Shown here: piece after piece, positions 12,435-60,521 of the stretch | Layout of the letters: the number at the start of each line of letters is the position of its first letter | Numbering within the stretch: the stretch's first letter is position 1 | Origin: Pilibacter termitis | GTDB lineage: Bacteria; Bacillota; Bacilli; Lactobacillales; Streptococcaceae | DNA length: 64,000 bases | Direction: 5' to 3' | Assembly: GCF_900167335.1 (NCBI RefSeq) | Contig: NZ_FUXI01000001.1 | Location: forward strand, 101,014-165,013 | The notes under the pieces: model-generated | Seen by the model: only the letters and a program-made list of their open reading frames with translations | What the model was told of the DNA's origin: nothing | Database searches by the model: none | Translations under genes and position numbers: made by a program

Positions 12435-12530
12435 GTAACATTTTGGCGAGCGACCCGACTTTTACGGTTGATTAGAGACAGTCTAGGAGTTCCACCTAGT
12501 TCCCTCAGTTCCAAAATTTTTATCTATCTA
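12435..12530 (-). promoter_or_regulatory. Cobalamin riboswitch aptamer
   Basis: On the minus strand the conserved B12-box order is present: GAGGGAACTAGGTGGAACTC, then CTAGACTGTCTC, then ACCGTAAAAG, then AGTCGGGTCGCTCGCC. This matches the aptamer pattern GGTGxAAxTCC, ACxGT and AGCCxGGxxxCCxGCC base for base in its invariant positions. A terminator hairpin follows. The gene it precedes encodes an intrinsic-factor-like protein, which fits repression of B12 uptake when cobalamin is plentiful. No promoter of its own was clear, so it may act on read-through from eutQ or on a weak local promoter. Confidence 0.8.
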
Positions 12531-14261: not shown

Positions 14262-14525
14262 TTATTCTTGTTCGACAGAATCCACTATGCCGACAATGGT
14301 TGAATCTACTGGGATTTCTTGCTCTAGTGCTACTCTTGCAGCACTTCCTGTTACGACAATGACTGTGTCTCCTACACCAGCACCCACATTGTCGGCTGCG
14401 ATAAACGTGTCTTGCGTGCTATTTTCTTGATGATCTAACCGCTCAACGACCATAAATTTTAAGCCTGTTAAACGCTCATTTTTCCGTGTCGACCAAATAT
14501 TCCCGATTACTCTACCAAGAATCAT
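14262..14525 (-). CDS. eutN: Microcompartment vertex protein EutN
   Basis: An 87-residue EutN/CcmL-family protein (MILGRVIGNIWSTRK, AADNVGAGVGDTVIVVTGSAAR) that forms pentamers closing the corners of the bacterial microcompartment shell. Its ATG overlaps the TGA of the preceding gene (ATGA), so translation is coupled, and the GGAGGGGGAG site lies in that gene's last codons. Confidence 0.95.
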   Translation of the reverse strand: MILGRVIGNIWSTRKNERLTGLKFMVVERLDHQENSTQDTFIAADNVGAGVGDTVIVVTGSAARVALEQEIPVDSTIVGIVDSVEQE

Positions 14526-15034
14526 TTACTCCCCCTCCTTGCAATAGAATGTTTTCGCTTTTTCCTTAACTCCTCTTGATAAAGAAATTTCTCAAATTCT
14601 TCATCAGAATGGATAAAGTGAACGCCGTAGCTTTCTAGTTTTTTCATCATTTCACCGATTTCTCGCCAAATACCAAAGCGTGTAGCACTCCGCAGTTCTT
14701 TTAGTGAAAATGAAGTAGAAAGAATGAATACACTTTTTTTCTTTAGCAGAGCTTGCAATATCGTTTTTGTTTCTTCATCGTTTTCTTGAAGATTGGCAAG
14801 TGCCGAAAGTTGCCCAAGCGTGAGATTGGCAACTAAGAGCATATCCGCCAGCGAGATTTCTTGCGAAAGAACAAGATAATTGGTTATTTTTTCAAAAATC
14901 GCCTCGGGAAGATTTTTTTCATCTCCTAACAACATTGCACACAATGTATTTGTTGATGTATCTTTTATGTCTAGTCTTTTTATGACCTCCTCTACTATTT
15001 TTTGAATGAGAATTTCTATTTCTTCGCTTTTCAT
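14522..15034 (-). CDS. Eut-operon protein of unknown function, possibly PduM-like
   Basis: A 170-residue protein not confidently recognised. It begins with an amphipathic helix (EEIEILIQKIVEEVIKRL) like those at the ends of microcompartment cargo, and the rest looks mainly helical (SLADMLLVANLTLGQLSALA) with a basic C-terminus (ELRKKRKHSIARRGSK). Its place between pduL and eutN, and its size, recall PduM-type structural proteins, but no diagnostic motif was seen. The start at 15034 is chosen for the GGAGGGAAGTGC site; an upstream in-frame ATG has none. The stop overlaps the eutN start. Confidence 0.7.
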   Translation of the reverse strand: MKSEEIEILIQKIVEEVIKRLDIKDTSTNTLCAMLLGDEKNLPEAIFEKITNYLVLSQEISLADMLLVANLTLGQLSALANLQENDEETKTILQALLKKKSVFILSTSFSLKELRSATRFGIWREIGEMMKKLESYGVHFIHSDEEFEKFLYQEELRKKRKHSIARRGSK

Positions 15035-15064
15035 GCACTTCCCTCCAATCATATTTACGAAAAA

Positions 15065-21633: not shown

Positions 21634-21790
21634 TTGTTTGTTCCTTTCTTTTTGTTAATTTATTTTTTGTTTTTCTCGTGTCTCAAATTTTTTTAAGGCG
21701 GTTTCGCCGCAGTTTGCAATACTAAAATTTCAAACAAGCAAATGGTTTCGCTCAATGCAGCTGACTTCCCCCACCTCTTCACTTTTCATT

Positions 21791-25297: not shown

Positions 25298-25457
25298 TAA
25301 CACTCTCCTCATTGAAAGTTTTTCATGCTTTCAACCAATAAACTTATGTGAAATGTTTTCTATCAAACAAAAATATGAAGAAGAAAACCTAAAACATTCT
25401 GCTCATTGGTTCGTATTTTGTATTAAGCAAAGGAACCGCGTATCTTCCTATGTACTT

Positions 25458-25552
25458 AGTGAATGGACAAAAGACCAGACTTTAGCGATGTGCTATTTAC
25501 TGTGGATAACGGACCGTTGAGGATTTCCACCTCATTCCATTGTACATTCACT
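25458..25552 (-). promoter_or_regulatory. Adenosylcobalamin riboswitch between eutS and eutV
   Basis: On the minus strand a closing stem AGTGAATG/CATTCACT encloses GAATGAGGTGGAAATCCTC, then AACGGTCC, then CCACAGTAAATAG, then AGTCTGGTC, the B12-box order of a compact (class II-like) cobalamin aptamer. Its place directly before eutV parallels the Rli55 riboswitch RNA of Listeria. No clear terminator or EutV-type hairpin pair was found in the 150 bases between it and eutV, so how it acts here is open. Confidence 0.8.
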
Positions 25553-25556
25553 CTCA

Positions 25557-25919
25557 TTATGTTTTGGTAATTTTTGTATCAACATTAAAACCAAGTATAT
25601 CTTTTAATCCTGCCAATACTTCTGTTACCGCCGACTCAACTGAACTAATATCTCCGCTAATGACTACACTGCCACTAAAACGGTCGACAAAACCTATTTC
25701 TACCGCACCGCTTTTGGTTGCAATATCTACTGCAATAATTGCCGCCTCACTCGGTGTAATCGTTAAAATCCCCAACGCACCTTTTGCTTGCGTATTTAAT
25801 CCTAGTTTTGTATAAATCTCTGGATTGGGGCTTGCAATAATATGTGCCATAGTGACTTGTTTCCCCGGCACATATTCTTGAATCATTCTCTGCTTTTCCG
25901 TCAATGAAACCTCCTCCAA
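25557..25919 (-). CDS. eutS: Microcompartment shell protein EutS
   Basis: A 120-residue circularly permuted BMC protein ([40 protein letters not shown]) that forms bent hexamers, thought to help shell curvature. Length is slightly above 110. A GGAGGAGG site precedes the ATG. It has its own promoter and an antiterminator leader upstream and is the first gene of the second transcription unit of the operon. Confidence 0.94.
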
Positions 25920-42184: not shown

Positions 42185-42430
42185 TTTTTTACATTCCTTT
42201 TAAAACTCACGCTTATCCAAAATTGATAGTTTTCCGATTTTCTTTGTCAGTTTCCTCAAACTTGTCTAACTGCGACAACCTCCTTAACGCCCCTCTTCGC
42301 TTTTCTTTGTCTGGCTACGAAGTGCTGAAGTCTGGCGGCTGTTCGCAACGTCGCTTGAAACTTCGTTTCAAGTGAATGAACGACATGGCTCACTGCCACA
42401 GACTTCAGAACGCACTTCTTCGCTTTTCTT
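42185..42430. repeat. MITE fragment joined to a long-stem repeat element (copy R1) at the tdk 3' end
   Basis: At 42192-42250 is one end of the MITE family (AAAACTCACGCTTATCC). From about 42279 is the long-stem element: GCCCCTCTTCGCTTTTC, GGCTACGAAGTGCTGAAGTC, CTGTTCGCAACGTCGC, hairpin TTGAAACTTCGTTTCAA, GACATGGCTCACTG, then CAGACTTCAGAACGCAC and CTTCGCTTTTC. The outer arms (GTGCTGAAGTCTG and CAGACTTCAG-CGCAC) are complementary. Related copies are at 49519-49612 and 56400-56716. Confidence 0.75.
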
Positions 42431-43006
42431 ATCACCACTCAACTCAGGGTGGTTATAGTGCTTGCGACAAACAGGATAATATGCCTCATTACCTCCAATT
42501 TGCACTTGCTCTCCCTCATAAACAGGTTTACCATTGACATAACGCAAGTTCATACTTGCTTTTTTCGGGCAGAACCAACAAATTGTTTTTAATTCTTCAA
42601 TTTTATCTGCTAACAAAAGCAAATGTTTCGTTCCCTCAAACATTTCATTACGAAAATCATTTTTCAAACCAAATGCAATAACTGGAATATCCAATTCATC
42701 TACAATTCTAGCAAAATCATACACATGATGTTTCCGTAAAAATTGTGCCTCATCAACCAGTACACAATAAATTTTTTGAGATTGATTTTTCAGTATCTCA
42801 AAAACATCTGTCTCCTCAAAAATCGGAATCGCCTCACGTTTCATACCAATTCTGCTTGAAACCATGCCTACTTTATCCCGATTATCTAAACCGCTTGTGA
42901 AAATCAAAACAGGTTTATCTTGTTCTTCGTAATTATGTGCAACTTTCAAAATCTCAATCGTCTTACCACTATTCATTGCACCGTATCTAAAAAATAATTG
43001 TGCCAT
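42368..43006 (-). CDS. tdk: Thymidine kinase
   Basis: A 212-residue type II thymidine kinase: P-loop [35 protein letters not shown], and zinc cysteines in [16 protein letters not shown] and YYPVCRKHY. The last 20 or so residues ([19 protein letters not shown]) are encoded by the long-stem repeat, which also supplies the stop codon; the normal protein would end near the KHYNHPEL segment. This tail lies outside the catalytic fold and probably leaves activity intact. Confidence 0.95.
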
Positions 43007-48773: not shown

Positions 48774-49493
48774 TTAAACAGAAGTTTTTGAGCTATTCTT
48801 GGCTTTTTTAAATAAATCATTTGGACGAATAATCCCTAAAATTTCTTCATTCCGTTCACCATGCTTGGTAATCAAAATCGCCTCTAAATTTGGCTCATTT
48901 TGAAATCGCTCAATACAAAAATCCGTTGGGAAATTGCTTGGAACGAAGGAAAATTTTGCTCTTTTTTCAGGACGTGCGAGCAAATCTGCTACTTGGTAGT
49001 GCGAAAAATCACTTTCTCCCGCACTAATACGCTCTGCTACCCAAAAACCAATCATTTTCAACGTCAAAAGCCCTTGAAATTCTTGATTTTTGACGACTGG
49101 ATAAAGAGTAAATTTTTTCTTGGCAACAATTTCCAATAATTCGGAAATCGGAATTTCAGCATTGATGAGCGTAATTTTCTTGCGAAATCTCGGTAATACC
49201 CGCTCAGGATGCAGTAATTCATGCTCAATCGCTTCAATTCGTTCAACTGCCCAATCGTTCGGCTCAGCAATGACGAACGCCTCGTTTGTTTGGTCATGCA
49301 CAATCGCATTTCTCAACTGAGCAAATTGAATGAGATCATTGGCGAATGGTGCCAAACGTAAATCTCGCCGTTTTTTCATATGCCCAACCAATGAAACAAA
49401 CGGAATATTGATTGGATTGTCGCTTTTTTCAAGCAACCATTTATTGATTCGATTAAAACTAGACAGAAACCTGTCGCTATTTTTAACGGTCAT
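48774..49493 (-). CDS. CBS-pair protein with N-terminal HEPN-like domain
   Basis: A 239-residue protein. The N-terminal 90 residues are helical and contain FANDLIQFAQLRNAIVHD, whose RNxxxH pattern resembles HEPN domains. The C-terminal part (about 105-230) looks like two CBS motifs (ISELLEIVAKKKFTLYPVV, EAILITKHGERNEEILGIIR). A role in nucleotide-controlled RNA handling can be imagined but is not shown. It lies just upstream of lspA-rluD and could be co-transcribed. Its 5' side carries a degenerate repeat. Confidence 0.7.
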   Translation of the reverse strand: MTVKNSDRFLSSFNRINKWLLEKSDNPINIPFVSLVGHMKKRRDLRLAPFANDLIQFAQLRNAIVHDQTNEAFVIAEPNDWAVERIEAIEHELLHPERVLPRFRKKITLINAEIPISELLEIVAKKKFTLYPVVKNQEFQGLLTLKMIGFWVAERISAGESDFSHYQVADLLARPEKRAKFSFVPSNFPTDFCIERFQNEPNLEAILITKHGERNEEILGIIRPNDLFKKAKNSSKTSV

Positions 49494-49518
49494 ATTTTTT
49501 CCATTCCTCTAAAATTTT

Positions 49519-49612
49519 TTCTTTTGTGAGTACAAAGTGTTGAAGTCTGGCGATGTTGATTGAAATGACTTGACAATCTTTATAATTCAAAACGCCCCAC
49601 TTCGCTTTTCTT
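49519..49612. repeat. Degenerate long-stem repeat (copy R2) at the 3' end of the next gene
   Basis: AGTGTTGAAGTCTGGCGATG and AACGCCCCACTTCGCTTTTC match the outer parts of the element at 42279-42430, but the middle (conserved TGTTCGCAA and TGGCTCACTG boxes) has been replaced. It begins a few bases after the stop codon of the 49616-50047 gene, in the same orientation as the other copies. Confidence 0.6.
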
Positions 49613-49615
49613 TTT

Positions 49616-50047
49616 TCAAAACACCTGTGAGTATTTTCTCAAGAGTTCAAACTCTTTTTCTACGTTTTCTTTGAAATCTAGGATTAAATTTTCATAGATA
49701 AATGATAAGTCTTCGTCACGTTGTCCAAAGCGGATAATGGCTTGGTAGTGGTACAAATATTTCGCTAAATAATACCCCCATAAATCAAAACTCAATAAGA
49801 ACTCCATTGTCACCGCACCTGTGAGAAATTTTTTGTCCGCTAAATAATTCGGCATTAATTTTCTCACTAATACGTCGTTGGATTGCTTTTTCAGTTCAAC
49901 CAAACGGAAGAAATCGCCAAATTCAATCCACCCCTTGTCTAAAAAATATTGCAAGGTTTCATCTATAAATTTACTTGTCAATCCAATCGACAAATAATAA
50001 CTTTTCCATTCTTTTGTATTCAGCGAATCGCTATTACGGTAAATCAA
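49616..50047 (-). CDS. Hypothetical protein, helical, 143 residues
   Basis: Not recognised. The N-terminal third (EWKSYYLSIGLTSKFIDETL, WIEFGDFFRLVELKK) and the C-terminal part (EDLSFIYENLILDFKENVEK) look helical and charged with many aromatic residues; there is no signal peptide or clear membrane segment. The start is a TTG at 50047 preceded by GAGAGGACGACAAAA; no ATG lies nearby in frame. Its stop abuts repeat copy R2. Confidence 0.65.
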   Translation of the reverse strand: MIYRNSDSLNTKEWKSYYLSIGLTSKFIDETLQYFLDKGWIEFGDFFRLVELKKQSNDVLVRKLMPNYLADKKFLTGAVTMEFLLSFDLWGYYLAKYLYHYQAIIRFGQRDEDLSFIYENLILDFKENVEKEFELLRKYSQVF

Positions 50048-50120
50048 TTTTGTCGTCCTCTCTTGCTACGTGCTTGCTTAGCTCATTTATCATAGCATAA
50101 ACTCAGAGAAATTTCCTGTT

Positions 50121-50561
50121 CTACTCGCTATTTTCTGCCCATTTCATGCGAAGTAGTTCGACTTTGGTACATCTATCCATGACAATTTTTTCTACACCAG
50201 CATTTTGCAAAATCTCTGCCGCCTCTTCCGAGAACAAGCCAGATTGTGACCAAAAAACATCCGCATCAATCTCAAGAAAATCACGTGCAACTTCTGGTAA
50301 AAATTCACTTCGTCTAAAAATATCCACAATATCAATATGTCCTGTAACATCTTGCAAGCGTGCCACCACTTTTTCACCTAAAATTTCTTTTCCTGCAAGC
50401 ACTGGATTGACAGGAACAATCTCATAACCTGCCAATTGCAACTGCTCTGCAATTAAATAACTCGAGCGATTTGTCTTGTCACTCATCCCAACAATAGCGA
50501 TACGCTTTGCTTTTTTCAAATAATCAAAAATAATCTTCTCCTCTGGATTGTGAAATTTCAT
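50121..50561 (-). CDS. CoA-binding domain protein (YccU type)
   Basis: A 146-residue Rossmann-type CoA-binding protein: AKRIAIVGMSDKTNRSSYLI at the N-terminus, GYEIVPVNPVLAGKEILGEK, and VFWSQSGLFSEEAAEIL, EKIVMDRCTKVE near the end. Its cellular role is unknown. GGAAAGGAAGTAAAGAA precedes the ATG. It is divergent from plsY. Confidence 0.88.
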   Translation of the reverse strand: MKFHNPEEKIIFDYLKKAKRIAIVGMSDKTNRSSYLIAEQLQLAGYEIVPVNPVLAGKEILGEKVVARLQDVTGHIDIVDIFRRSEFLPEVARDFLEIDADVFWSQSGLFSEEAAEILQNAGVEKIVMDRCTKVELLRMKWAENSE

Positions 50562-50781
50562 TTCTTTACTTCCTTTCCACGCAAAAATCTGGTAAAATTT
50601 CTGAGCAAGCTCTTTTATATAGTATATAATTTTTTGGGCAGAAATGATAATGAAATATTTTAAGGAGTGTCCTTAAATGAAAATTTTTGTACGAGAGATT
50701 TTCTTATCAAAGTCAATAAACATGAAGTGAAAAAACAAAAAAGACTTCAATTGGTCTTTCGTTCACAGGAAGGAGAAAAAC

Positions 50782-51432
50782 GTGGTTATTCCATTTTTAT
50801 TATTACTCGCCTATCTCTTTGGCTCAATTCCAAGTGGTGTTTGGATTGGGAAAAAATTTTTTGATGTCGATATTCGCCAGTTTGGTTCTGGCAATATTGG
50901 TACCACCAATACTTTTCGTGTGCTAGGGAAACGTGCAGGTGTGGTTGTATTGCTTTGTGACATGTTCAAAGGAACACTTGCCACTCTTTTGCCTGTTGTA
51001 TTTCATGTGAACAATATCTCACCAGTTGTTTTTGGGATTTTTGCGATTCTAGGGCATACTTTTTCTATTTTCGTCCGTTTCAAAGGCGGAAAAGCAGTCG
51101 CAACAAGTGCAGGAATGTTACTTGGTGTAGCACCAATGTTTTTTGTTTATGTTATGGTGATTTTTACCATTTCGCTCTTTTTGACAAGCATGGTGAGTTT
51201 CTCCTCGATTGCAGCTGCTGCTTTTGGATTTTTAGGTGTACTCCTTTTTCCAGTTTTCCATTGTCCGATTTTAGCAAACCGAGACTGGTTATTTACGGTT
51301 TTGATTGTGTTACTAGCACTCTTTATCGTCTTGCGACATCGTGAAAATATTGAACGAATGAAAAAACGAGAAGAAAATACAATTGGTTTTGGATTGAATT
51401 TGTTGAAAAACGGGAAAAAAGCGGAGAAATAA
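50782..51432 (+). CDS. plsY: Acyl-phosphate:glycerol-3-phosphate acyltransferase PlsY
   Basis: A 216-residue membrane enzyme starting phospholipid synthesis by acylating glycerol-3-phosphate. The three PlsY motifs are seen: FGSIPSGVWIGKKFF, QFGSGNIGTTNTFRVLG, and GHTFSIFVRFKGGKAVATSA. It has about seven hydrophobic segments. The start is GTG, with AAGGAGAAAAAC just before it. Upstream, TATAAT at 50625-50630 has only a weak -35, and a 17-codon open frame at 50678 with its own AAGGAG site is not convincing. Confidence 0.95.
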   Translation: MVIPFLLLLAYLFGSIPSGVWIGKKFFDVDIRQFGSGNIGTTNTFRVLGKRAGVVVLLCDMFKGTLATLLPVVFHVNNISPVVFGIFAILGHTFSIFVRFKGGKAVATSAGMLLGVAPMFFVYVMVIFTISLFLTSMVSFSSIAAAAFGFLGVLLFPVFHCPILANRDWLFTVLIVLLALFIVLRHRENIERMKKREENTIGFGLNLLKNGKKAEK

Positions 51433-51504
51433 ATCCCGCTTTTTTGCTTTTCTATTCTCAAGCCGCTTGTCTTCTCCATAAGAACGAGAATCAAAAATTT
51501 GTTT

Positions 51505-51786
51505 TCATTCTTCTTTTGTAAGTTGAAACTCTTTCTTTTCGTTTGTTGAAGTTCTTTTTTCAAACTCCATTCTTCCCTTTTCAGAAGGTTCGTTTTGTAA
51601 AATTTCCGACTTTGCGGGTAGTGTGTGTGGCTCTTGTTCTATCAAAACACCTGTAAATCGCCCTTGCTCTTGAACGATTGAGTCTGCTATTTTTCTTACT
51701 TCTTGTTTACTTGTCAAAGTATGGACAAAAGAGCCTGTGATAATTGCAAATAATCCGAGAAGTGTAATTATAATACTTTTTTTCAT
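51505..51786 (-). CDS. Small exported protein of unknown function
   Basis: About 93 residues: a basic start and hydrophobic segment (KKSIIITLLGLFAIITGSFV), then a hydrophilic tail (TSKQEVRKIADSIVQEQGRF and a Glu/Lys-rich end). A signal anchor or peptide is likely. The ATG at 51786 follows AAAGGAAA; ATGs at 51789 and 51801 are alternatives. It is convergent with plsY. No family was recognised. Confidence 0.55.
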   Translation of the reverse strand: MKKSIIITLLGLFAIITGSFVHTLTSKQEVRKIADSIVQEQGRFTGVLIEQEPHTLPAKSEILQNEPSEKGRMEFEKRTSTNEKKEFQLTKEE

Positions 51787-51949
51787 CATTTTCCTTTTCA
51801 TTCCCCACGTTATAAAGATACCATTAAAATCATAACCTTATCTTTTTGGTGTGGCTATATAAAACCCGTTTATTCAGAAAAAAGAAAAAAACTGCCCTAT
51901 TTTTTTATCAAAAACTAAAAAAGCTACTCTTTTGTTTACAAAAACAGAC

Positions 51950-52028
51950 TTAAAGGTACCTCTAAAAACTCACGCTTACCCAAAATTGCTAGTTTTGGCT
52001 TAACCAGAGTTTTTAGAGGTACCCTTAA
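51950..52028. repeat. Short MITE-like element (copy C)
   Basis: Inverted ends TTAAAGGTACCTCTAAAAAC and TTTTTAGAGGTACCCTTAA enclose about 40 bases with CAAAATTGCTAGTTTTGGC. It looks like an internally deleted form of the long copies and lies after ebsA. Confidence 0.8.
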
Positions 52029-52054
52029 CAAAAGTGTTCACACTATTTTCCTAA

Positions 52055-52489
52055 CTAAAAATGTTCAATCTCTGTAATCTCTGCCTTAAATTCTTGCATT
52101 TCACGGATTGCCTCCATAAATGGCTCTTTGTGCCAACGTCTCATGTAAAAAATACGACCGTCTTTCCATTTTTCACAATATATCCTCACACCATGTGGGG
52201 CAATTTGAATGGCACGAATATCCGAAATTTTTACTCTCGCACGTTCTTTTTTGAACAAAGAAACGACAAATAACTCATCATTTTCAAAATAAAAATATCG
52301 ATGAAAACCGATTGCCACGAAGAATAAAAAGACGAAAAATATCACAAACGTCAGCCAATAAACCTCCGTATTTTCCAATGTAAAAATCATACTAATGAAA
52401 AAAATAGTAAAGGTTGCTGACCAATACGTCACACTTGTCGTGAGATCTGGTTGCCAATGATAACGAATTTTCCCGAAAATTTTAATCAT
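52055..52489 (-). CDS. ebsA: EbsA-family membrane protein
   Basis: A 144-residue protein (MIKIFGKIRYHWQPDLTTSV) with two adjacent membrane segments (WSATFTIFFISMIFTLE, WLTFVIFFVFLFFVAIG) and a soluble PH-like C-terminal part (FKKERARVKISDIRAIQIAP). Enterococcal EbsA is a pore-forming-type protein linked to cell-surface phenotypes; its function is unclear. The start at 52489 is set by AAGGAAGAGAAGT. It is divergent from the RNase H-like gene, as in enterococci. Confidence 0.85.
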   Translation of the reverse strand: MIKIFGKIRYHWQPDLTTSVTYWSATFTIFFISMIFTLENTEVYWLTFVIFFVFLFFVAIGFHRYFYFENDELFVVSLFKKERARVKISDIRAIQIAPHGVRIYCEKWKDGRIFYMRRWHKEPFMEAIREMQEFKAEITEIEHF

Positions 52490-52603
52490 ACTTCTCTTCC
52501 TTACGCTTTTGAGTGTGTAAAAAATAGTCTTACTACTCACTTTTTTCAAGTCAATGTGATAGAATTTTAACATAAAAGCATAAAAATAGAAAGTCAATTG
52601 AGT

Positions 52604-53020
52604 ATGATAAAAATTTATGTAGATGCGGCAACGCATACAGAAAAGAAATTAAGTGGCGGTGGCATCGTTTTTATCGAGAACGGCAAACAAACGCAACACT
52701 CCTTTCCGCTTTACGCTACCAACAATCACGAGGCGGAATTTGAAGTGCTACTTCTCTCGCTAAAAATCTTACTAGAGCAAGAAAAAACAAACGAGAGCAT
52801 TTTCCTTTTTTCCGATTCTAAAACGGTTGTTGCCTCGTTGGATAAAGGTTTTACTAAAAATCCTAGGTTTATTCCGTATTTAACGGAATTTTTAGAGCTA
52901 GAAAAAAACTTTTCCTTGCTGATCGTACAGTGGATTCCTGAAAATCAAAACAAAGGGGCAGACAATCTAGCTCGCCAAGGGTTGCAAAAAAGTTTAAAAA
53001 TAAATAAAGGGCATCTCTAA
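52604..53020 (+). CDS. RNase HI-like protein
   Basis: A 138-residue protein with the RNase H fold: first acidic residue in IKIYVDAATHTEKKLSGGG, second (Glu) in NNHEAEFEVLLLSLKIL, third in IFLFSDSKTVVASLDKG, fourth in ENQNKGADNLARQG. It should cleave RNA in RNA-DNA hybrids if active; it is a short form without a hybrid-binding domain. The ATG at 52604 has a weak GAAAG site; a TTG at 52598 is an alternative. Confidence 0.85.
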   Translation: MIKIYVDAATHTEKKLSGGGIVFIENGKQTQHSFPLYATNNHEAEFEVLLLSLKILLEQEKTNESIFLFSDSKTVVASLDKGFTKNPRFIPYLTEFLELEKNFSLLIVQWIPENQNKGADNLARQGLQKSLKINKGHL

Positions 53021-53056
53021 AGACAAACTATAAAAAATAATGGACAGCCATACTTT

Positions 53057-53494
53057 TTACGGCAAATTCACCATTGGAAAATCCACTACTTCTCGTGCTT
53101 TTCCGTCAACATTCATCAAACCTGCAAAGTCGTGAAATGAAAAAATTACTTTGCCGAAAATATCCAAATCAGCTAAGTTTCGTCGCAATTTGACAATTGG
53201 CTGAATGGAAATTGCAGATAACGGAGTAAAAGTATAAATATCATGCACAACAGAGAGTTTCATGGAAACAATTTCCTCAGGTGCGTTCGCTACATTTCTC
53301 AAAAGAATAAAGCTCTCATCGGTCAAATGTGCTAAAATATCCGTCTCCGCACTAAACTCTACGGCAACTAGCACGTCGCCATTCGATGAATAAGGGTTGT
53401 CTGTTGTCGTTTTGACGGGCAAAAAAGTCAAATTCAGGTCATCTGTTGCATAATGCTCTGGCAATAATAAATCAAACGGGATAATTTTCCTCAT
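53057..53494 (-). CDS. Hypothetical protein, 145 residues
   Basis: Not recognised. It appears soluble, with alternating beta-like stretches (NGDVLVAVEFSAETDILAHL, SFILLRNVANAPEEIVSMKL, LDIFGKVIFSFHDFAGLMNV). No signal peptide. TTGGAGGAATT precedes the ATG, so it is probably expressed. A short MITE end lies next to it at about 53500-53540. Confidence 0.65.
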   Translation of the reverse strand: MRKIIPFDLLLPEHYATDDLNLTFLPVKTTTDNPYSSNGDVLVAVEFSAETDILAHLTDESFILLRNVANAPEEIVSMKLSVVHDIYTFTPLSAISIQPIVKLRRNLADLDIFGKVIFSFHDFAGLMNVDGKAREVVDFPMVNLP

Positions 53495-53547
53495 AATTCC
53501 TCCAATAAATAAAGGGTACTCTTAAATTTAAAAGCACCCATTTTTTG

Positions 53548-53736
53548 TTATTTTTCTGCTTCGCTTTCGTAATCTAACCAATTTTCCAACAGCTCGGCAA
53601 AATTCTCATACATCACACGCTTGATACGTGCCACCTCTGCACGATGTTCTTCTTTGTTACGAACAAAAATTTCCTCGATTGTTTCTTGGTTTTTGGCAAG
53701 TTGATGCGTTCTTGCAATCATTTCTTCTCGTTTCAT
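53548..53736 (-). CDS. Small coiled-coil-like protein, 62 residues
   Basis: Highly charged and helical: MKREEMIARTHQLAKNQETI, VRNKEEHRAEVARIKRVMYE, then WLDYESEAEK. No family was recognised. The ATG at 53736 is chosen for GAGGAGAAACAAC; a longer reading from 53796 has no site. Confidence 0.65.
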   Translation of the reverse strand: MKREEMIARTHQLAKNQETIEEIFVRNKEEHRAEVARIKRVMYENFAELLENWLDYESEAEK

Positions 53737-53863
53737 GTTGTTTCTCCTCGTCATTTTATTTGATACTCTTATTTTATCATAAGTAAGGGATTTCATGCTT
53801 AGATTTGCTGTAAAACTTTTTTAAGAGTAGAAAGTGTTGTTCCTCTTTGGATAGAGCATACAT

Positions 53864-53902
53864 AAAAAAACTCACGATTTTCGGAAACCGTGAGTTTTTT
53901 TT
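53864..53902 (-). terminator. Terminator of pheT
   Basis: AAAACTCACGATTTTCG and CGGAAACCGTGAGTTTT pair with one internal mismatch, flanked by A and T runs. It is about 60 bases after the pheT stop. Confidence 0.88.
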
Positions 53903-53956
53903 ATCTAGTTACAAATTGCAGACTTTTGATCGCTGTTTGCTTTTGTTAGGCGTGCC

Positions 53957-56380
53957 TTATCTTATTTCCGCACCAAACATTTCTTCTAATTTACTTGTGA
54001 TTTTCTCCATAGCTGCGTTGATTTCTTCATCTGTCAACGTTGCTTCAGCATTTGAGAAGGTAAGCGAGTAGGCAAGTGATTTTTTACCTGCACCTAATTT
54101 TTCACCTGCAAACAAGTCGAATAAATGTACTTTTTTCAAGAAACGTGTCCCTACTTCAAAAATTGCTTGCGTAATTGCTTGATTGGTAATTTCTTCGTTT
54201 ACCAAAAGAGCAATGTCACGTGTAACAAGTGGGAATTTCGAAATTGGCTCAAAAATTGTTTGCTCCATTGTCACAACTTCTGCAAGTACATCAAGATTTA
54301 GCTCGCAGACGTAAACTTCTGGCAAATCATAGCTTTTCGCAAGATTTGGGTGAACTTGTCCGATAAAGCCAATTTCTTGATTGTCTAGCAAAATTTTCGC
54401 CGTTCTTCCAGCGTGCAAATCATCACTCGTTTTCCATGCGACATAAGAAATTTTTTCAGCGACACCAATTGCTTGGAAAAATCCTTCTAAAATGCCTTTT
54501 GCTGTGAAGAAATCTACTTTTTCCACTTGAGTTTGCCAATCTTTTGTTACTCTTAGTCCACTCAAGGCAAAGGAAAGATGATCGATTTCTTTTGGTAAAT
54601 GAAGTTTCGGATCTTGATTATTTTCAAATACTCTACCTATTTCATAAAACGCTAAATCGCTATTTTTGCGTGCAATGTTATAGCTCAAATTATCCAAAAG
54701 ACCACTGACCAAACTCTGACGTAGGCTGGTGCGTTCTTCGGTCATTGGCCAATCCAAATGTGTGATATTGCTTGCTTTTTCCGTAAACTGCTGGGCTTTT
54801 TCCTCCGTTGTCAAAGCATAGGAAACAATTTCTTGTAATCCATATCCTTCAAGGATTTTTTGCACGTTTCGCACAAATTTTTGTTTTGCAGAAAGTCCAC
54901 TATTTGCGTCCGTTCCTTGTGGCAAGGTAGACGGTAAGTTGTCATAGCCGTAAATACGAGCGACTTCCTCAACAATATCTGCTTCAATCGAAATATCCCA
55001 ACGACGTGGTGGAATTTTAACGGAAAAGTCCCCTTCTAAATCACGATATTCAAACCCAAGTCGATCAAAAATCTTCTCTACTTCTTCTTTGTGAAGTGAT
55101 GTACCAAGTGAACGATTGATTTTTTCTAGCGTAATGCCAACAATCACTTCTTCTGGTGTCCGCTCACTTCCTGTTGCCACACCACTTACGACCACTCCAC
55201 CAGAAAGCTCCGCAATCATAGCAGCTGCCACATCACAGGCAAGAGATACGGTTGCTTTATTAATTCCTTTTTCAAAACGAAGAGACGACTCACTACGAAG
55301 ATTGAACGCTTTACTTGCTTGGCGAATAAGTTGAGGGTCAAACAACGCTGCCTCAAGAGCAACAGTGGTGCTAGACTCATCAATTTCTGTATTTTCTCCG
55401 CCCATTACTCCAGCTAACGCAACAGGCTTGCCTCCGCTTGTGATCACAAGGTGTTCACTTGCAAGTTTGCGTTCTTCACCGTCAAGTGTTCTCAACATTT
55501 CTTCTGCGTTCGCACGGCGAATAAAGATTTCTTTTGCGTTTAATTTGTCATAATCAAACGCATGAAGTGGCTGACCGAAGTAAAGCAAGATGAAATTTGT
55601 CACATCTACTACGTTATTTATCGGACGAATCCCCTCGCTCATCAAGCGATTTTGTAGCCAAAGTGGGCTTGGAGCAATTTTAACGTTTTTAATCACACGC
55701 ATTTTGTAGGTTGGTGTATCTTGTTCGTTTTCTACTTTGATTGAAATATAGTTTTCAACTGTATCATTTTCATCTTCTTTCGGCAATTGATCCGCAAAAT
55801 TTGGTGTTTTGCCAACAATCGCACCGACTTCATACGCTACACCACGCATAGAAAGAGCATCTGCTCTGTTTGGCGTGATAGATAGCTCGATAATGGCATC
55901 ATCCATATCCAAATACTCAAAAACAGGTTTCCCTACTTCTGCATTTTCTGGCAAGTAATAAATGCCGTCCGCATATTCTTTTGGCACAACAGAATCAGAA
56001 AAACCAATTTCTGTAAGGGAGCAAATCATACCAAGAGATACTTCCCCACGAATTTTCCCTTTTTTAATCTTGTAATTCCCTGCAATTCTCGCACTAGGAA
56101 GTGCGACAATGACCTTGATACCGCTCTTTACATTGGGAGCACCGCAAACGATTTGGTAAAGCTCACTCTCTCCGACATCTACTTGGCAAATGCTCAAATG
56201 GTCACTATCTGGATGTGGCACACATTCGAGAACATTCCCGACAACAATTTTCTTTAACCCCTCACTTTTTACTTCGATACCCTCTACTTCGATTCCAGTA
56301 AGAGACATCTTATCCGCCAACTCTTGCGGAGTTAAGTCGTAATCGACTAATTCTTTTAACCATTTGGTTGATACTAACAT
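53957..56380 (-). CDS. pheT: Phenylalanine-tRNA ligase beta subunit
   Basis: An 807-residue full-length beta chain: an N-terminal tRNA-binding EMAP-like domain ([20 protein letters not shown]), the B3/B4 editing region, B5 ([20 protein letters not shown]) and the C-terminal anticodon-binding domain ([20 protein letters not shown]). It forms a heterotetramer with PheS. The gene is intact but separated from pheS by about 2.7 kb of other genes. AAAGGTGAAAACAA precedes the ATG. Confidence 0.97.
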
Positions 56381-56399
56381 TTGTTTTCACCTTTCTTTT

Positions 56400-56716
56400 T
56401 CGCTCTACAAGGGCAAGTGTTTGGCAACTGTTCGCAAACACCTATACGCCCCTCTTCGCTTTTCGTTGTCTAGCTACGTAGTGCTGAATTTTGGTCGCTG
56501 TTCGCAATGCCACCTGAAGCTCTGCTTCAGGCAAGTAAATGGCATGGCTCACTGCGACAAAATTCAATACGCACTACTCCGCTTTTCGTTTTGTCTAGCT
56601 ACGAGTGGCAGGTGTTTGGCAACTGTTCGCAACGTCGCTCGAAACTTGCGTTTCGAGTATATGAACGACGTGGCTCACTGTTGCAAACACCTATACGCCC
56701 CTCTTCGCTTTTCGTT
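56400..56716. repeat. Cluster of about three long-stem repeat units (copy R3) before pheT
   Basis: Unit boundaries are marked by CGCTTTTCG-TTGTCTAGCTACG (near 56456 and 56580). Each unit has conserved boxes TGTTCGCAA and TGGCTCACTG. The outer arms differ but remain complementary: GCTGAATTTTGGTCGC with GCGACAAAATTCA in one, AGGTGTTTGGCAAC with GTTGCAAACACCT in another. A perfect inner hairpin CTCGAAACTTGCGTTTCGAG is in the last unit. No gene is present. The last bases encode the C-terminus of the adjacent acetyltransferase. Confidence 0.8.
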
Positions 56717-57254
56717 TCCATTCATTTTTTGTTTTTTCGTAAATTAAGCAGTCGTGGAATTGTTTGTTGTGAAAAATTTCTTCTTTTAATTCGCCGACTA
56801 AGCGATAGTTATTTGCAGTGATTACGTGCTTAGAATTTTTATTTTCTATATCATGTTTGATAAGTAATTTGTTCAATTCTGTTTCTGTAAAGACATATTC
56901 TTCTATCGTTTTTAGAGCTGTTGACATAATGCCTCGCCCTGTATAGTCTTTGTCAAGCCAATAGCCCACTTCTCCTCGTTTGTTCAACTGGTCTATCGCA
57001 TGAACATCAATCATACCTACCAATCTCTCTTGATAGAAAATATTAAAAACAATCACATTCCCTTTTCCAAATTCTTCTAGCTGACTTACTTGAAAATTTT
57101 CACTATCTTCTATTTCCCTCGTAAATTCCGTCCAGAAAAACCATTGATTAAAAATCTCACGATTGTTCTCGATAACTTCAAATACTTCTCTCCCGTATTT
57201 TTTATTCGGGAGTTTTAGGGTGAGGTCTTGGGTTTTGGTGGTTATTTTTAGCAT
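56691..57254 (-). CDS. GNAT-family N-acetyltransferase (RimJ/RimL type)
   Basis: A 187-residue acetyltransferase. The acetyl-CoA-binding region is EVGYWLDKDYTGRGIMSTAL, followed by the typical second strand LLIKHDIENKNSKHVITANN and YRLVGELKEE. The substrate could be a ribosomal protein, antibiotic or small molecule; this cannot be decided. The last residues (KRKAKRGV) and the stop are encoded by the repeat cluster. It lies between the restriction gene and pheT. Confidence 0.85.
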   Translation of the reverse strand: MLKITTKTQDLTLKLPNKKYGREVFEVIENNREIFNQWFFWTEFTREIEDSENFQVSQLEEFGKGNVIVFNIFYQERLVGMIDVHAIDQLNKRGEVGYWLDKDYTGRGIMSTALKTIEEYVFTETELNKLLIKHDIENKNSKHVITANNYRLVGELKEEIFHNKQFHDCLIYEKTKNEWKRKAKRGV

Positions 57255-57286
57255 GGGTGCCTCCTTGTGTTATGTTGAACAATTAG

Positions 57287-58027
57287 TTAAATTTCAAATA
57301 ATTCGGTGGGATCTATCTTGAATTGTAGCATATTAGCTGTTTCTCTACCGTTGTCTCCACCTTTTCTTTGCATGGTTATTTTTCCTATTCTTAGGCTTCC
57401 TCTTGGTGTGATTTCAACTTCACCTATATAAAATCCCATCACTTCATTAATATTTTTCAAAACCCAACGTGCATTATCTTCTACCTTTTGAGCCACCAAT
57501 ACCCATTCAGCTGAAAATTCTCCCCGTCCTCTTAAAATATCGCTAACAACTAATGTTTTATTTTCAGTAAACCAAGTTAAAATTCTTTCCTGTTCTTCAA
57601 TGGTAAATTCCGTCAAAAACATTCTGCGTTCATCTTTTATTCCTTTTTTATAAGGTGAAATTTCTCCTGTAAAATACTGTAATAGCTTTAAAATTTCTTC
57701 TGGAAATTTCCACATTTCTTGATAATTTCTTACCCAACGCTTATCTACTTGATTAAATCCTTTTTTATTACTTACAAGTTTTACTTGTATATTTTCTATG
57801 TCTAATGCTTGTTTCATTTGTATTTGTACTTTACAGTTTAAATCTGCTTTATAACCACTTAAAACAATAGCTTTAACTGACGATATTTCAGAAAGTTTAT
57901 ACCCCATTATCGTAAGCCATTTTTTTGCCTCATCATCACTTTGCCAATGGTTAAATTTTTCAGCAATCTCTCTTTCATTCTTAAATCCATTTCTTGCTGT
58001 CTGCGAACCTAACTCCTCTAAATTCAT
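57287..58027 (-). CDS. Type II restriction endonuclease, HinP1I-like (predicted GCGC)
   Basis: A 246-residue endonuclease that resembles R.HinP1I along its whole length: MNLEELGSQTARNGFKNERE at the start, VKAIVLSGYKADLNCKV, NIQVKLVSNKKGFNQVDK, DILRGRGEFSAEWVLVAQKV, and KGGDNGRETANMLQFKID at the end. The catalytic set reported for HinP1I, Asp62, Gln81 and Lys83, falls at the same positions here. Prediction: cuts G^CGC, countered by the adjacent methylase. Its ATG overlaps the methylase stop by four bases, so it is made after it. Confidence 0.9.
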   Translation of the reverse strand: MNLEELGSQTARNGFKNEREIAEKFNHWQSDDEAKKWLTIMGYKLSEISSVKAIVLSGYKADLNCKVQIQMKQALDIENIQVKLVSNKKGFNQVDKRWVRNYQEMWKFPEEILKLLQYFTGEISPYKKGIKDERRMFLTEFTIEEQERILTWFTENKTLVVSDILRGRGEFSAEWVLVAQKVEDNARWVLKNINEVMGFYIGEVEITPRGSLRIGKITMQRKGGDNGRETANMLQFKIDPTELFEI

Positions 58028-59007
58028 TCAATTGCCTCCAACATTCTTTTCGTTACAAATTCCATAACGTTCACCGTCATAGCATTACCGACTTGTGAAA
58101 GTAATTTATTAGTGCCTATTTTGTTATTTTTAGCAAGTTGAATAATTTCTTTTGGAAATCCTTGCAGTGCCATTCCTTCATAAGCCGATATTTTTACAAA
58201 TTTCTTATCTCGAACATAGAGAATACCATGACGACCATTTCGGAGAGTTGGTACCTTTCCTTCATATAACCTTAAATCGCTTTGTCTAGTATCTAATACC
58301 AAATAATCATTTTTAAGTAAATCTGAAATGTTATATTTTCCTTTATTATACTTATTGTTTAAATATCTAAGAAAAGTTTCGTTATCCTCTGATAAATAAT
58401 GTCGGTTCTCCTCATCTAAAAACTCTTTTAAATCAACTCGTTTTACTTCATGTAGCCAATTCATTTGACGTTTTTTTAGATATTTTTTTATACCAACGAT
58501 ATAAATTCTCTCACGCATTTGAGGAACCCCAAAGTCTACACTATTTAATACTTGGTACTCAACATCATAATCTAATTCTTTTAACATATTTAAAATAATT
58601 TTCAATGTCCGTCCTTTATCATGATTTACAAGCCCTTTTACATTTTCAAAAATAAAGCACGGAATGTTTTTTTCTTTTAATATTTTTACTAATCCCGTTA
58701 TTACAAGACCTCGTTCATCCTCAAATCCCTGTCGTTTCCCAACAATCGAAAATGTTTGACAAGGAAAACCAGAAACCAAAACATCAAAATCTGGTAAACT
58801 ATCAGAATTAATTTCCATCAAATCGCCAAAATTAGAACCATCTTGAAAAAACAACTGATAGTTTTCATCAACTGCTTGATTAATCTCTGAATGACCTACG
58901 CAAAACAATCCTGCTCTTGCCAATCCCAAACGTCCACCACCAATTCCAGAACAAAAATCCATAAATTTCAATGGTTCCTTTTCAAACAATGTCATTTGTT
59001 CTTGCAT
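58024..59007 (-). CDS. DNA (cytosine-5) methyltransferase, partner of the HinP1I-like enzyme
   Basis: A 327-residue m5C methyltransferase. Motif I FMDFCSGIGGGRLGLARAG, motif IV VLVSGFPCQTFSIVGKRQGF with the catalytic cysteine, motif VI CFIFENVKGLVNHDKG, motif VIII QMRERIYIVGI and motif X (NKLLSQVGNAMTVNVMEFV) are all in order. It should protect GCGC sites. The gene starts 58 bases after pheS with GGGAGGAACACA before the ATG and no clear promoter of its own. Confidence 0.93.
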   Translation of the reverse strand: MQEQMTLFEKEPLKFMDFCSGIGGGRLGLARAGLFCVGHSEINQAVDENYQLFFQDGSNFGDLMEINSDSLPDFDVLVSGFPCQTFSIVGKRQGFEDERGLVITGLVKILKEKNIPCFIFENVKGLVNHDKGRTLKIILNMLKELDYDVEYQVLNSVDFGVPQMRERIYIVGIKKYLKKRQMNWLHEVKRVDLKEFLDEENRHYLSEDNETFLRYLNNKYNKGKYNISDLLKNDYLVLDTRQSDLRLYEGKVPTLRNGRHGILYVRDKKFVKISAYEGMALQGFPKEIIQLAKNNKIGTNKLLSQVGNAMTVNVMEFVTKRMLEAIE

Positions 59008-60100: not shown

Positions 60101-60128
60101 GCTACTCTCCTTATGTTTTTTATTTTAT

Positions 60129-60285
60129 GGGCTCCTCTAAAAACTCCGCTTAAGACTAAATTAGCTAGTTTTTCGATTTTCGAGAAAATCGACGAAAGCT
60201 ATGTGGTTCATAGGTTGAGGAGATTGACAAAGAAAATCGGAAAACTAGCAATTTAGGATAAGTGCGAGTTTTTAGAGGTGCCCTT
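60129..60285. repeat. MITE-like element, long form, inside the pheS leader (copy B)
   Basis: About 157 bp, almost identical to the element at 332-496 in reverse orientation: GGGCTCCTCTAAAAACTCCG at one end, GAGTTTTTAGAGGTGCCCTT at the other, with long inner arms around GAAAATCGACGAAAGC. It lies between the T-box terminator and the pheS ribosome binding site, so it is transcribed into the mRNA leader. Confidence 0.88.
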
Positions 60286-60299
60286 ATCTTGTTGATACA

Positions 60300-60515
60300 A
60301 AAAAACGCAAGCCAACGCTCCAAAAGGAACGATTGTCTCGCGGTACCATCCTAGATTATCGGCAAATTTGCCAATCTCTCAATAAGTGTAACGGTCTCCA
60401 CCGAGGTCAAACCCCACTCCAAAAGCGAATTCGCCACATTTCCATAAGAAGCTCCCAGCAACGCTCCTCTCTCTAAAATAGAAAATTATGGGTACTACTC
60501 TTTTTCACGTTTTCT
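60300..60515 (-). promoter_or_regulatory. T-box leader of pheS (tRNA-Phe sensor)
   Basis: On the minus strand the T-box sequence AGGATGGTACCGCG is at 60339-60352, followed by the terminator (CAATCGTTCC with GGAGCGTTG, then GCGTTTTTTTG). Upstream is a long stem I region with GAGCTTCTTATGG, in which TTC (60448-60450) could be the phenylalanine specifier codon. Uncharged tRNA-Phe would favour the antiterminator and raise expression of pheS and the genes behind it. Confidence 0.9.
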
Positions 60516-60521
60516 TATGGT

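Follow-up and report, generated by a model that had tools for sequence, protein, structure and literature searches.

Short repeats are known from Streptococcaceae (RUP of Streptococcus pneumoniae and BOX), and the EFAR elements of enterococci have an L-shaped two-hairpin structure and hairpin targets. Here, we describe a ~121-nt hairpin repeat from a 64,000-nt stretch of the Pilibacter termitis genome (contig NZ_FUXI01000001.1, positions 101,014 to 165,013; hereafter, the window), which is, like RUP, a short repeat of Streptococcaceae. It is also comparable to the enterobacterial repeats ERIC/IRU and YPAL, which are ~100–200 bp long, form a long RNA stem-loop, and are co-transcribed with their neighbors; the same account gives ERIC terminal inverted repeats, TA termini, and a target duplication, and YPAL duplications of 3–26 bp (PMC2229807). 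REP/BIME sequences, according to another account, are likewise palindromic, extragenic, and located mostly downstream of coding regions (PMC3733652), and a further paper ties REP to a Y1 transposase, RAYT (PMC2817692). Within Bacilli, bcr1 of the Bacillus cereus group is described as an intergenic hairpin repeat often present in transcripts (PMC3446304), and LPSM, the large intergenic supermotifs of Lactobacillus plantarum, as repeated structured intergenic sequences of a Lactobacillales species (PMC5643018). EFAR (named in PMC3733652) is, like our element, a small Lactobacillales repeat.

An earlier note on the window had reported three sites at which the repeat begins, in one orientation, at a minus-strand stop codon, and had proposed either targeting to terminators or a role as a 3′ mRNA end. 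We find that the position next to stop codons is real and characterizes this mobile-type hairpin repeat throughout the genome. An insertion preference combined with selection accounts for it best, with a role in RNA as the main rival. On balance, the repeat is probably a short mobile element without coding capacity, present across Bacilli and of a kind that has apparently not been described.

Position of the repeat at stop codons in P. termitis

The short sequence AAAGCGAAG found at these sites is a piece of the 5′ end of the ~121-nt repeat, GAAAAGCGNA...AGCTAGACA. The consensus of 68 units is GAAAAGCGAAGAGGGGCG...AGCTAGACA, and the ends are fixed and non-identical (GAAAAGCGNA at the 5′ side and NAGCTAGACA at the 3′ side). 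Exact matches to the 5′ end GAAAAGCGNAG number 327 in the genome (98.7% complete), versus 12 for the reversed control, and a covariance model of the repeat gave at least 150 genome matches, which is every candidate scored. A profile search (E ≤ 1e-3) of 106 sampled stretches, the window included (439 kb), returned 425 matches, 303 of them full length, with each long unit scoring as two matches. These group into 139 arrays of one to nine matches each, in which units stand singly or head to tail at a spacing of mostly 122–126 nt, or ~183–186 nt for long units. The only opposite-strand matches within 400 nt of the arrays were two palindrome echoes of an array's own units.

The stretches were chosen from the first 100 GAAAAGCGNAG places and 150 covariance matches, so that degenerate copies are under-represented. 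Several contigs of the assembly begin or end within the repeat (L006, L010, L019, L032, L113, L121, and L124), indicating that the assembly breaks there; the array count is a lower bound because of such breaks inside repeats, while arrays interrupted by assembly gaps (e.g., L013, L059, L076, L078, and L115) were counted more than once. Five of the 139 arrays (the two opposite-strand palindrome echoes and three short part-matches) were dropped, leaving 134 that were classified. Counting apart 21 arrays borne by a miniature inverted-repeat transposable element (MITE), described below, left 113 non-MITE arrays. Neighboring genes were called with a home-made program based on codon usage.

Among 86 sampled arrays with an intact 5′ end and an upstream gene on the same strand, 43 start between −3 and +4 nt of the stop codon (11 at −3 to −1 and 32 at 0 to +4); nine start at +5 to +10, 26 lie further away, and eight are entered by the upstream reading frame. 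In 62 co-directional spacers, 32 arrays start at or before +4, where uniform placement expects 7.7; when the 12 nt that precede the next start codon are left out, the expectation is 13.6, and none of 20,000 simulations reached 32. The base preceding the element is A at 90 of 104 readable sites. At the single readable empty site, a MITE copy at window positions 60123–60285, comparison with filled copies shows at most one extra A. Over the sampled copies of the genome, the position relative to the stop codon is thus regular in P. termitis, and the random position and orientation that would have spoken against the earlier note were not seen.

In the window itself, AAAGCGAAG occurs seven times, always on the minus strand; 1.05 occurrences are expected, and none of 100 shuffles contained seven. 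Five of these sites (42295, 42418, 49600, 56454, and 56703) are element starts; the other two, at 15022 (open reading frame (ORF) 14522–15052) and 53559 (ORF 53548–53796), lie inside reading frames and carry no element. The copies and their host genes are as follows.

42308–42428, minus strand: full hairpin unit; the tdk frame enters it by 61 nt and stops inside
42263–42305, minus strand: truncated second unit, GAAAAGCG...TTAGACA, adjoining half of a MITE-like repeat (42195–42262)
49519–49610, minus strand: decayed unit, ends recognizable, hairpin core lost; 5 nt past the stop of the 49616–50047 gene
56592–56713, minus strand: full hairpin unit; the GNAT frame stops 23 nt inside
56466–56587, minus strand: second full unit of the same array, from profile and fold
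56401–56464, minus strand: third unit, with an internal deletion, 20 nt from the start of pheT (53957–56380); read from the sequence
21701–21787, minus strand: degenerate copy, 3 nt past the stop of the 21791–23269 gene and 67 nt before the 20269–21633 gene
42368–43006, minus strand: thymidine kinase gene tdk (PF00265, by Pfam), extended into the element
49616–50047, minus strand: gene that hosts the decayed copy; Pfam assigned no family (E ≤ 1e-5)
56691–57254, minus strand: GNAT acetyltransferase gene (by Pfam), its last codons element-derived

The three sites named earlier are real and share one orientation; the one at tdk lies outside the coordinates given in the note (49519–57254). A start just past the stop codon is borne out at one of the three, after the 49616–50047 gene, where 5 nt separate the end of the stop (49616) from the start of the element (49610). 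At the tdk and GNAT genes, the frame instead continues for 61 and 23 nt, respectively, and both the stop codon and an added C-terminal tail come from the element. The decayed copy folds weakly (z −1.75 for 90 nt) and falls under the profile threshold, and the degenerate copy at 21701–21787 is an addition to the sites noted before; we take its flanking genes to be a eutA-eutB pair from their resemblance. In a draft genome of the same genus (G001), the Tdk frame terminates at a TAA of its own, with no element between it and the next gene. Other observations in the window include a C5 methylase gene and a gene for a restriction endonuclease of the R.HinP1I type, both at 57287–59007 in the gap ahead of pheT, a gap that in G001 holds a different small reading frame, and two cobalamin riboswitches and a T-box leader at 25425–25565, 12440–12517, and 60322–60516.

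Fold, orientation, and composition of the arrays

Each intact unit folds into a single hairpin that is long and imperfect. The three such units of the window have z values of −5.75, −6.43, and −7.28; one unit folded as DNA gave z −7.2 and −6.7 for its two strands. The outermost 4–5 nt (GAAA/AGACA) are unpaired, and the arms pair from nt 5 inward. In the 68 units, 29 of 41 pairs were changed on both sides, and 96.1% of the cells were paired, versus 84.0% in shuffled and 31–41% in slid alignments. A larger set of 293 distinct units (rows with at most six gaps, out of 392 aligned matches) likewise showed two or more Watson–Crick types at 29 of 41 base pairs, with pair cells comprising 11,356 Watson–Crick, 229 G–T, 91 A–C, and 325 other combinations. 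A single hairpin was predicted for 288 of these 293 units and a 5′-side bulge for 262. G–T cells exceed A–C cells at 27 pairs, and the reverse holds at six (p 0.0003). Since G–T on one strand is A–C on the other, this excess marks the GAAAAGCG strand as the one that is kept foldable, whether as RNA or as single-stranded DNA. The letters of an A–A mismatch (columns 36/91) and of tandem G–A pairs (39/88 and 40/87) are kept in at least 291 of 293 units, and the 8-nt bulge opens with TT[T/C]A, of which T50, T51, and A53 are invariant. A nested hairpin of ~60 nt, ACAGTCTTTCTAAGAATCAAAGATTCTTGAAAGACT, nearly identical between copies, occupies the apex of some units and brings them to ~180 nt. It was found in 38 long units (among them at L003, L010, and L023), which account for 38 of 39 split pairs of part-matches, the remaining pair being a 1-kb gap bordered by Ns. 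No pair of ends enclosing a gene, as expected of an autonomous copy, was seen in the sampled stretches.

Both neighbors could be called for 95 of the 113 non-MITE arrays, of which 74 are co-directional in the sense orientation, two are antisense, ten lie between convergent genes, and nine between divergent genes. As regards replication direction as a candidate cause of the orientation, sense arrays occur on both contig strands (43 plus and 31 minus). A matrix of the target site predicts 65–69% sense, while the observed ratio is 74/76 (p below 1e-9); an A-rich target as the sole cause of the orientation, which gives 65–69% versus 97%, was rejected. MITE-borne copies are divided 7:3 between sense and antisense (Fisher p 0.010). 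Nineteen arrays begin −25 to +10 nt from the upstream stop and end within 30 nt of the next start; all 19 fill a co-directional gap, from −22 to +7 nt of the stop to 11–27 nt before the next start codon. Ten flanking pairs were run through Pfam, and they include one prenyltransferase-cytidylyltransferase (uppS-cdsA-like) and one DHDPS-DapB (dapA-dapB-like) pair.

The hairpin is not followed by a T-tract in the sense reading. Across 72 arrays that retain both ends, the first 12 nt past the hairpin average 0.3 T when read in sense and 7.8 T when read in antisense, and seven or more T are present in 0/72 and 63/72 cases, respectively (tail counted alone); a GC-rich stem with a T-tract in sense, as in an intrinsic terminator, was therefore found in none. 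A home-made scan of the 200 nt next to the 3′ side placed a sense terminator there in 10 and an antisense terminator in 11 of the 113 arrays, so that terminators as targets are unsupported in P. termitis. Operon arrays are unlikely to be transcript ends because a terminator between the two genes should shut off the second. Given these arrays and the lack of a sense T-tract, the 3′ mRNA end role proposed for the repeat is unlikely.

Adjacent units are 79.8% identical, barely more alike than units of different arrays (78.6%), and the arrays therefore consist largely of different copies; non-adjacent units of the same array are 82.7% identical. The best match of a unit lies within its own array in 92 of 258 cases (2.3 expected), often two places away. 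Units are joined mostly by a 2-nt link, which is AA at 135 of 242 joints. A second, MITE-like repeat with inverted ends AAGGGCACCTCTAAAAACTC / GAGTTTTTAGAGGTGCCCTT is present in the window at 331–493, 42195–42262, 51948–52026, and 60123–60285. Its flanking motif accompanies 21 of the 134 classified arrays, and in many of these the hairpin element occupies a single position within the MITE (GTGGTTCATA followed by AGGTTGAGGAG).

Related repeats in Streptococcaceae and other Bacilli

The covariance model found the element in six of 58 genomes and, in a search of the family, in nine of 295 genomes, P. termitis included in both. These searches scored the best candidates per genome (62 in the 58-genome and 12 in the 295-genome search), and the counts are lower bounds; outside P. 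termitis, genomes carry at least one to six copies as scored. Named carriers are Floricoccus penangensis, F. tropicus, and one Streptococcaceae metagenome-assembled genome; the model gave no match in draft G001, which is 59% complete. Genera differ in their stems but largely retain the fold and the GTTTATTNACT...AACGAAGTT core. By eye, copies in relatives lie between what we take to be rpsH and rplF and, in antisense, between presumed phosphotransferase system genes, while a gap that we assume to be purS-purQ holds an antisense copy in two genera. One further copy lies between 16S and 23S rRNA.

A wider search pattern consisted of the two ends alone, 80–110 nt apart. It was found in 33 of 398 Bacilli genomes and 21 of 146 genera, P. 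termitis included, with 200 matches in P. termitis, ~438 in the other 32 genomes, and one match for the reversed-pattern control; a few single matches resemble coding sequence. From 113 units of other Bacilli, 107 were chosen by length for folding: 98 form a single hairpin and 80 have a 5′-side bulge, compared with 25 and 17 when the core was shuffled and the ends, which the pattern imposes, were kept. Both ends (GAAAAGCG/AGCTAGACA), a length of ~105–125 nt, a single hairpin, and a 5′-side bulge are accordingly found across Bacilli, and common descent of the repeats that share these ends is likely, with the caveat that the pattern itself imposes the ends. The P. termitis covariance model found none of the copies at ten loci of other Bacilli.

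Loci of other Bacilli were taken from the listed heads of the searches and are not a random sample, their neighbors are the longest ORFs, and arrays with identical upstream 60 nt were collapsed (from 82 to 72). With an upstream gene on the same strand, the 5′ end lies −2 to +5 nt from the stop codon in 20 of 33 arrays; with an opposite-strand upstream gene, whose start faces the element, it is that close in one of 37. The 72 arrays comprise 27 between convergent genes, 25 antisense, four sense, 11 between divergent genes, and five with one neighbor missing. By the home-made scan, 36 of the 72 arrays have the terminator of an antisense gene no more than 200 nt from their 3′ side, and one array has it on the 5′ side, so that terminators may be targets in these genomes. 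The common orientation seen in the window thus extends to the P. termitis genome (74 sense and two antisense), but not to other Bacilli (four and 25). At several of these loci (L160, L231, L236, L194, and L226), TATACTTTCTTA or a close variant follows the 3′ side of the array, mostly ~20–30 nt off, and is perhaps an additional 3′ part of the repeat families concerned.

Proposed origin, alternatives, and known systems

A further, less certain reading is that these repeats may form a Bacilli-wide class of mobile hairpins that move as a single strand, distinct from REP/RAYT, IS200/IS605, MITEs, and integron attC sites, moved in trans, landing at stop codons or A-rich sites, and building oriented, heterogeneous arrays in operons. 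In the reading given above as probable, the element is inserted at A-rich or TAA sites, with at most one A duplicated at the one readable empty site. Later copies, for the most part non-identical, join it in head-to-tail order, usually through a link of 2 nt. The folded single-stranded GAAAAGCG strand is probably recognized by a mobility enzyme acting in trans. A TAA or A-rich stop as the target would leave the gene nearly intact, so that copies at stop codons become over-represented and insertions within genes are lost. What would remain of the targeting proposed earlier is an A-rich or TAA insertion site at which stop codons are tolerated. The sense reading, which has no T-tract, should be transcribed through, while the antisense stem has a T-rich tail; antisense copies in operons would then be lost through polarity, and this may account for the ratio of 74 sense to two antisense arrays.

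Several observations weigh against this proposal. No enzyme was found and no insertion event was seen, and the empty tdk site belongs to a diverged genome. The target matrix is weak and was built from the same insertion sites that it scores. MITE-borne copies may trace to few events, and near-invariant loops together with the 74:2 ratio could reflect selection for an RNA role. A consensus terminator scan of 49400–57400 called none at the elements on either strand, antisense included. The best matches within a unit's own array and the 82.7% identity of non-adjacent units indicate that there is some array growth by duplication. In other Bacilli, co-directional spacers show the reverse orientation (25 antisense and four sense); polarity fits these 25 arrays only if they lie outside transcription units, and the 36 of 72 with a terminator nearby cover arrays of all orientations.

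The main rival, which we consider unlikely, is a host-selected mRNA element whose sense hairpin separates cistrons and protects or cuts the upstream message, as in RNase III-like processing, the place behind the stop codon being functional. It draws on the covariation and near-invariant internal loops, on a sense bias well beyond the target bias, on arrays inside compact operons, and on the effect of ERIC orientation on upstream mRNA that is reported in a review (PMC2229807). Weighed against these are the 20 host proteins given to Pfam, which have no obvious common function, the draft G001 without a match, arrays that vary from one to nine matches, the 7:3 ratio of MITE-borne copies, and antisense copies in most co-directional spacers of other Bacilli and at several related Streptococcaceae loci.

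It is quite doubtful that two unrelated repeats, one in Streptococcaceae and one in other Bacilli, owe their common ends to convergence or to the search pattern. The failure of the P. termitis model at the ten loci, the imposed ends, and the few coding-like single matches would fit; however, the single control match in 398 genomes stands against ~438 matches in 32 others, and the same single hairpin with a 5′-side bulge, which the pattern does not impose, recurs together with tandem arrays and a position at stop codons as in P. termitis.

A repeat of the REP/BIME type, or one derived from IS200/IS605, with a Y1 (RAYT) transposase to move it would likewise be palindromic, extragenic, without a clear target duplication, and present in hundreds of copies, and Y1_Tnp matches occur in eight of 16 other element-bearing genomes examined and in G019. 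Such an origin is nevertheless improbable, and it was rejected: PF01797 has no match in the P. termitis genome or in eight other carriers (G367, G504, G458, G442, G407, G018, G026, and G082), and a ~121-nt unit repeated head to tail is not a repeat of 20–40 nt. With matches in half of the other carriers, Y1 does not account for the group. Derivation from a retroelement (group II intron or retron) was rejected as well, with no match to the reverse transcriptase family RVT_1 (PF00078) in the genome, where later loss of a trans-acting enzyme is possible. Searches of plasmids and phages gave no match for the P. termitis element and, for units of other Bacilli, one plasmid of Geobacillus subterraneus and no other match; no viral contig carried the core pattern. 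Integron attC sites came into consideration through the hairpin, the shared orientation, and the arrays; in the arrays read, no genes lay between units. Finally, a transcription terminator or 3′ mRNA end is very improbable, since the GC-rich stem, the antisense T-rich tail (63/72), and the 27 of 72 other-Bacilli arrays between convergent genes are set against a sense T-tract in 0/72, no terminator called at the elements in 49400–57400, and arrays ending 11–27 nt upstream of the next co-directional start codon.

Among the copies scanned, no Rfam covariance model matched the elements in the window, at 11 related loci, or at ten loci of other Bacilli. A search of the literature with the letters of the repeat returned 0 papers, and no description of the repeat was recognized in the open-licence text of PMC, although an older subscription paper may cover part of it. 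Hundreds of ~120-nt hairpins are thus present in one genome, some of them in operons, and end-sharing repeats extend to 21 of 146 Bacilli genera, with no Rfam family for the scanned copies. If the ends mark one mobility system, its enzyme is still to be found, and the sense bias makes the effect of intercistronic hairpins on mRNA testable by an orientation swap.

Compared with the systems introduced above, the P. termitis repeat differs from ERIC and YPAL in its unpaired outermost 4–5 nt, in the duplication of at most one A (at one site), and in its head-to-tail copies. It differs from bcr1 in the described length, which for bcr1 is 147–167 bp (PMC2267715). RUP is given as 107 bp long, with 9-bp terminal repeats, TA targets, and a link to IS630-Spn1 (PMC2229807), and LPSM as 800–1000 nt long and, reportedly, apparently specific to L. 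plantarum (PMC5643018). REP/BIME units, described as 20–40 bp long, go with a Y1 transposase that the P. termitis genome lacks by our search; in place of a 20–40-nt palindrome tagged with GTAG/CGTC at one end, the repeat has ~121 nt, and only 149 of 293 units carry GTA(G) after the stem. With regard to the MITEs of DDE transposons, the inverted repeat of the P. termitis element is subterminal and imperfect, its arms starting from nt 5, and the one readable empty site shows at most one extra A.

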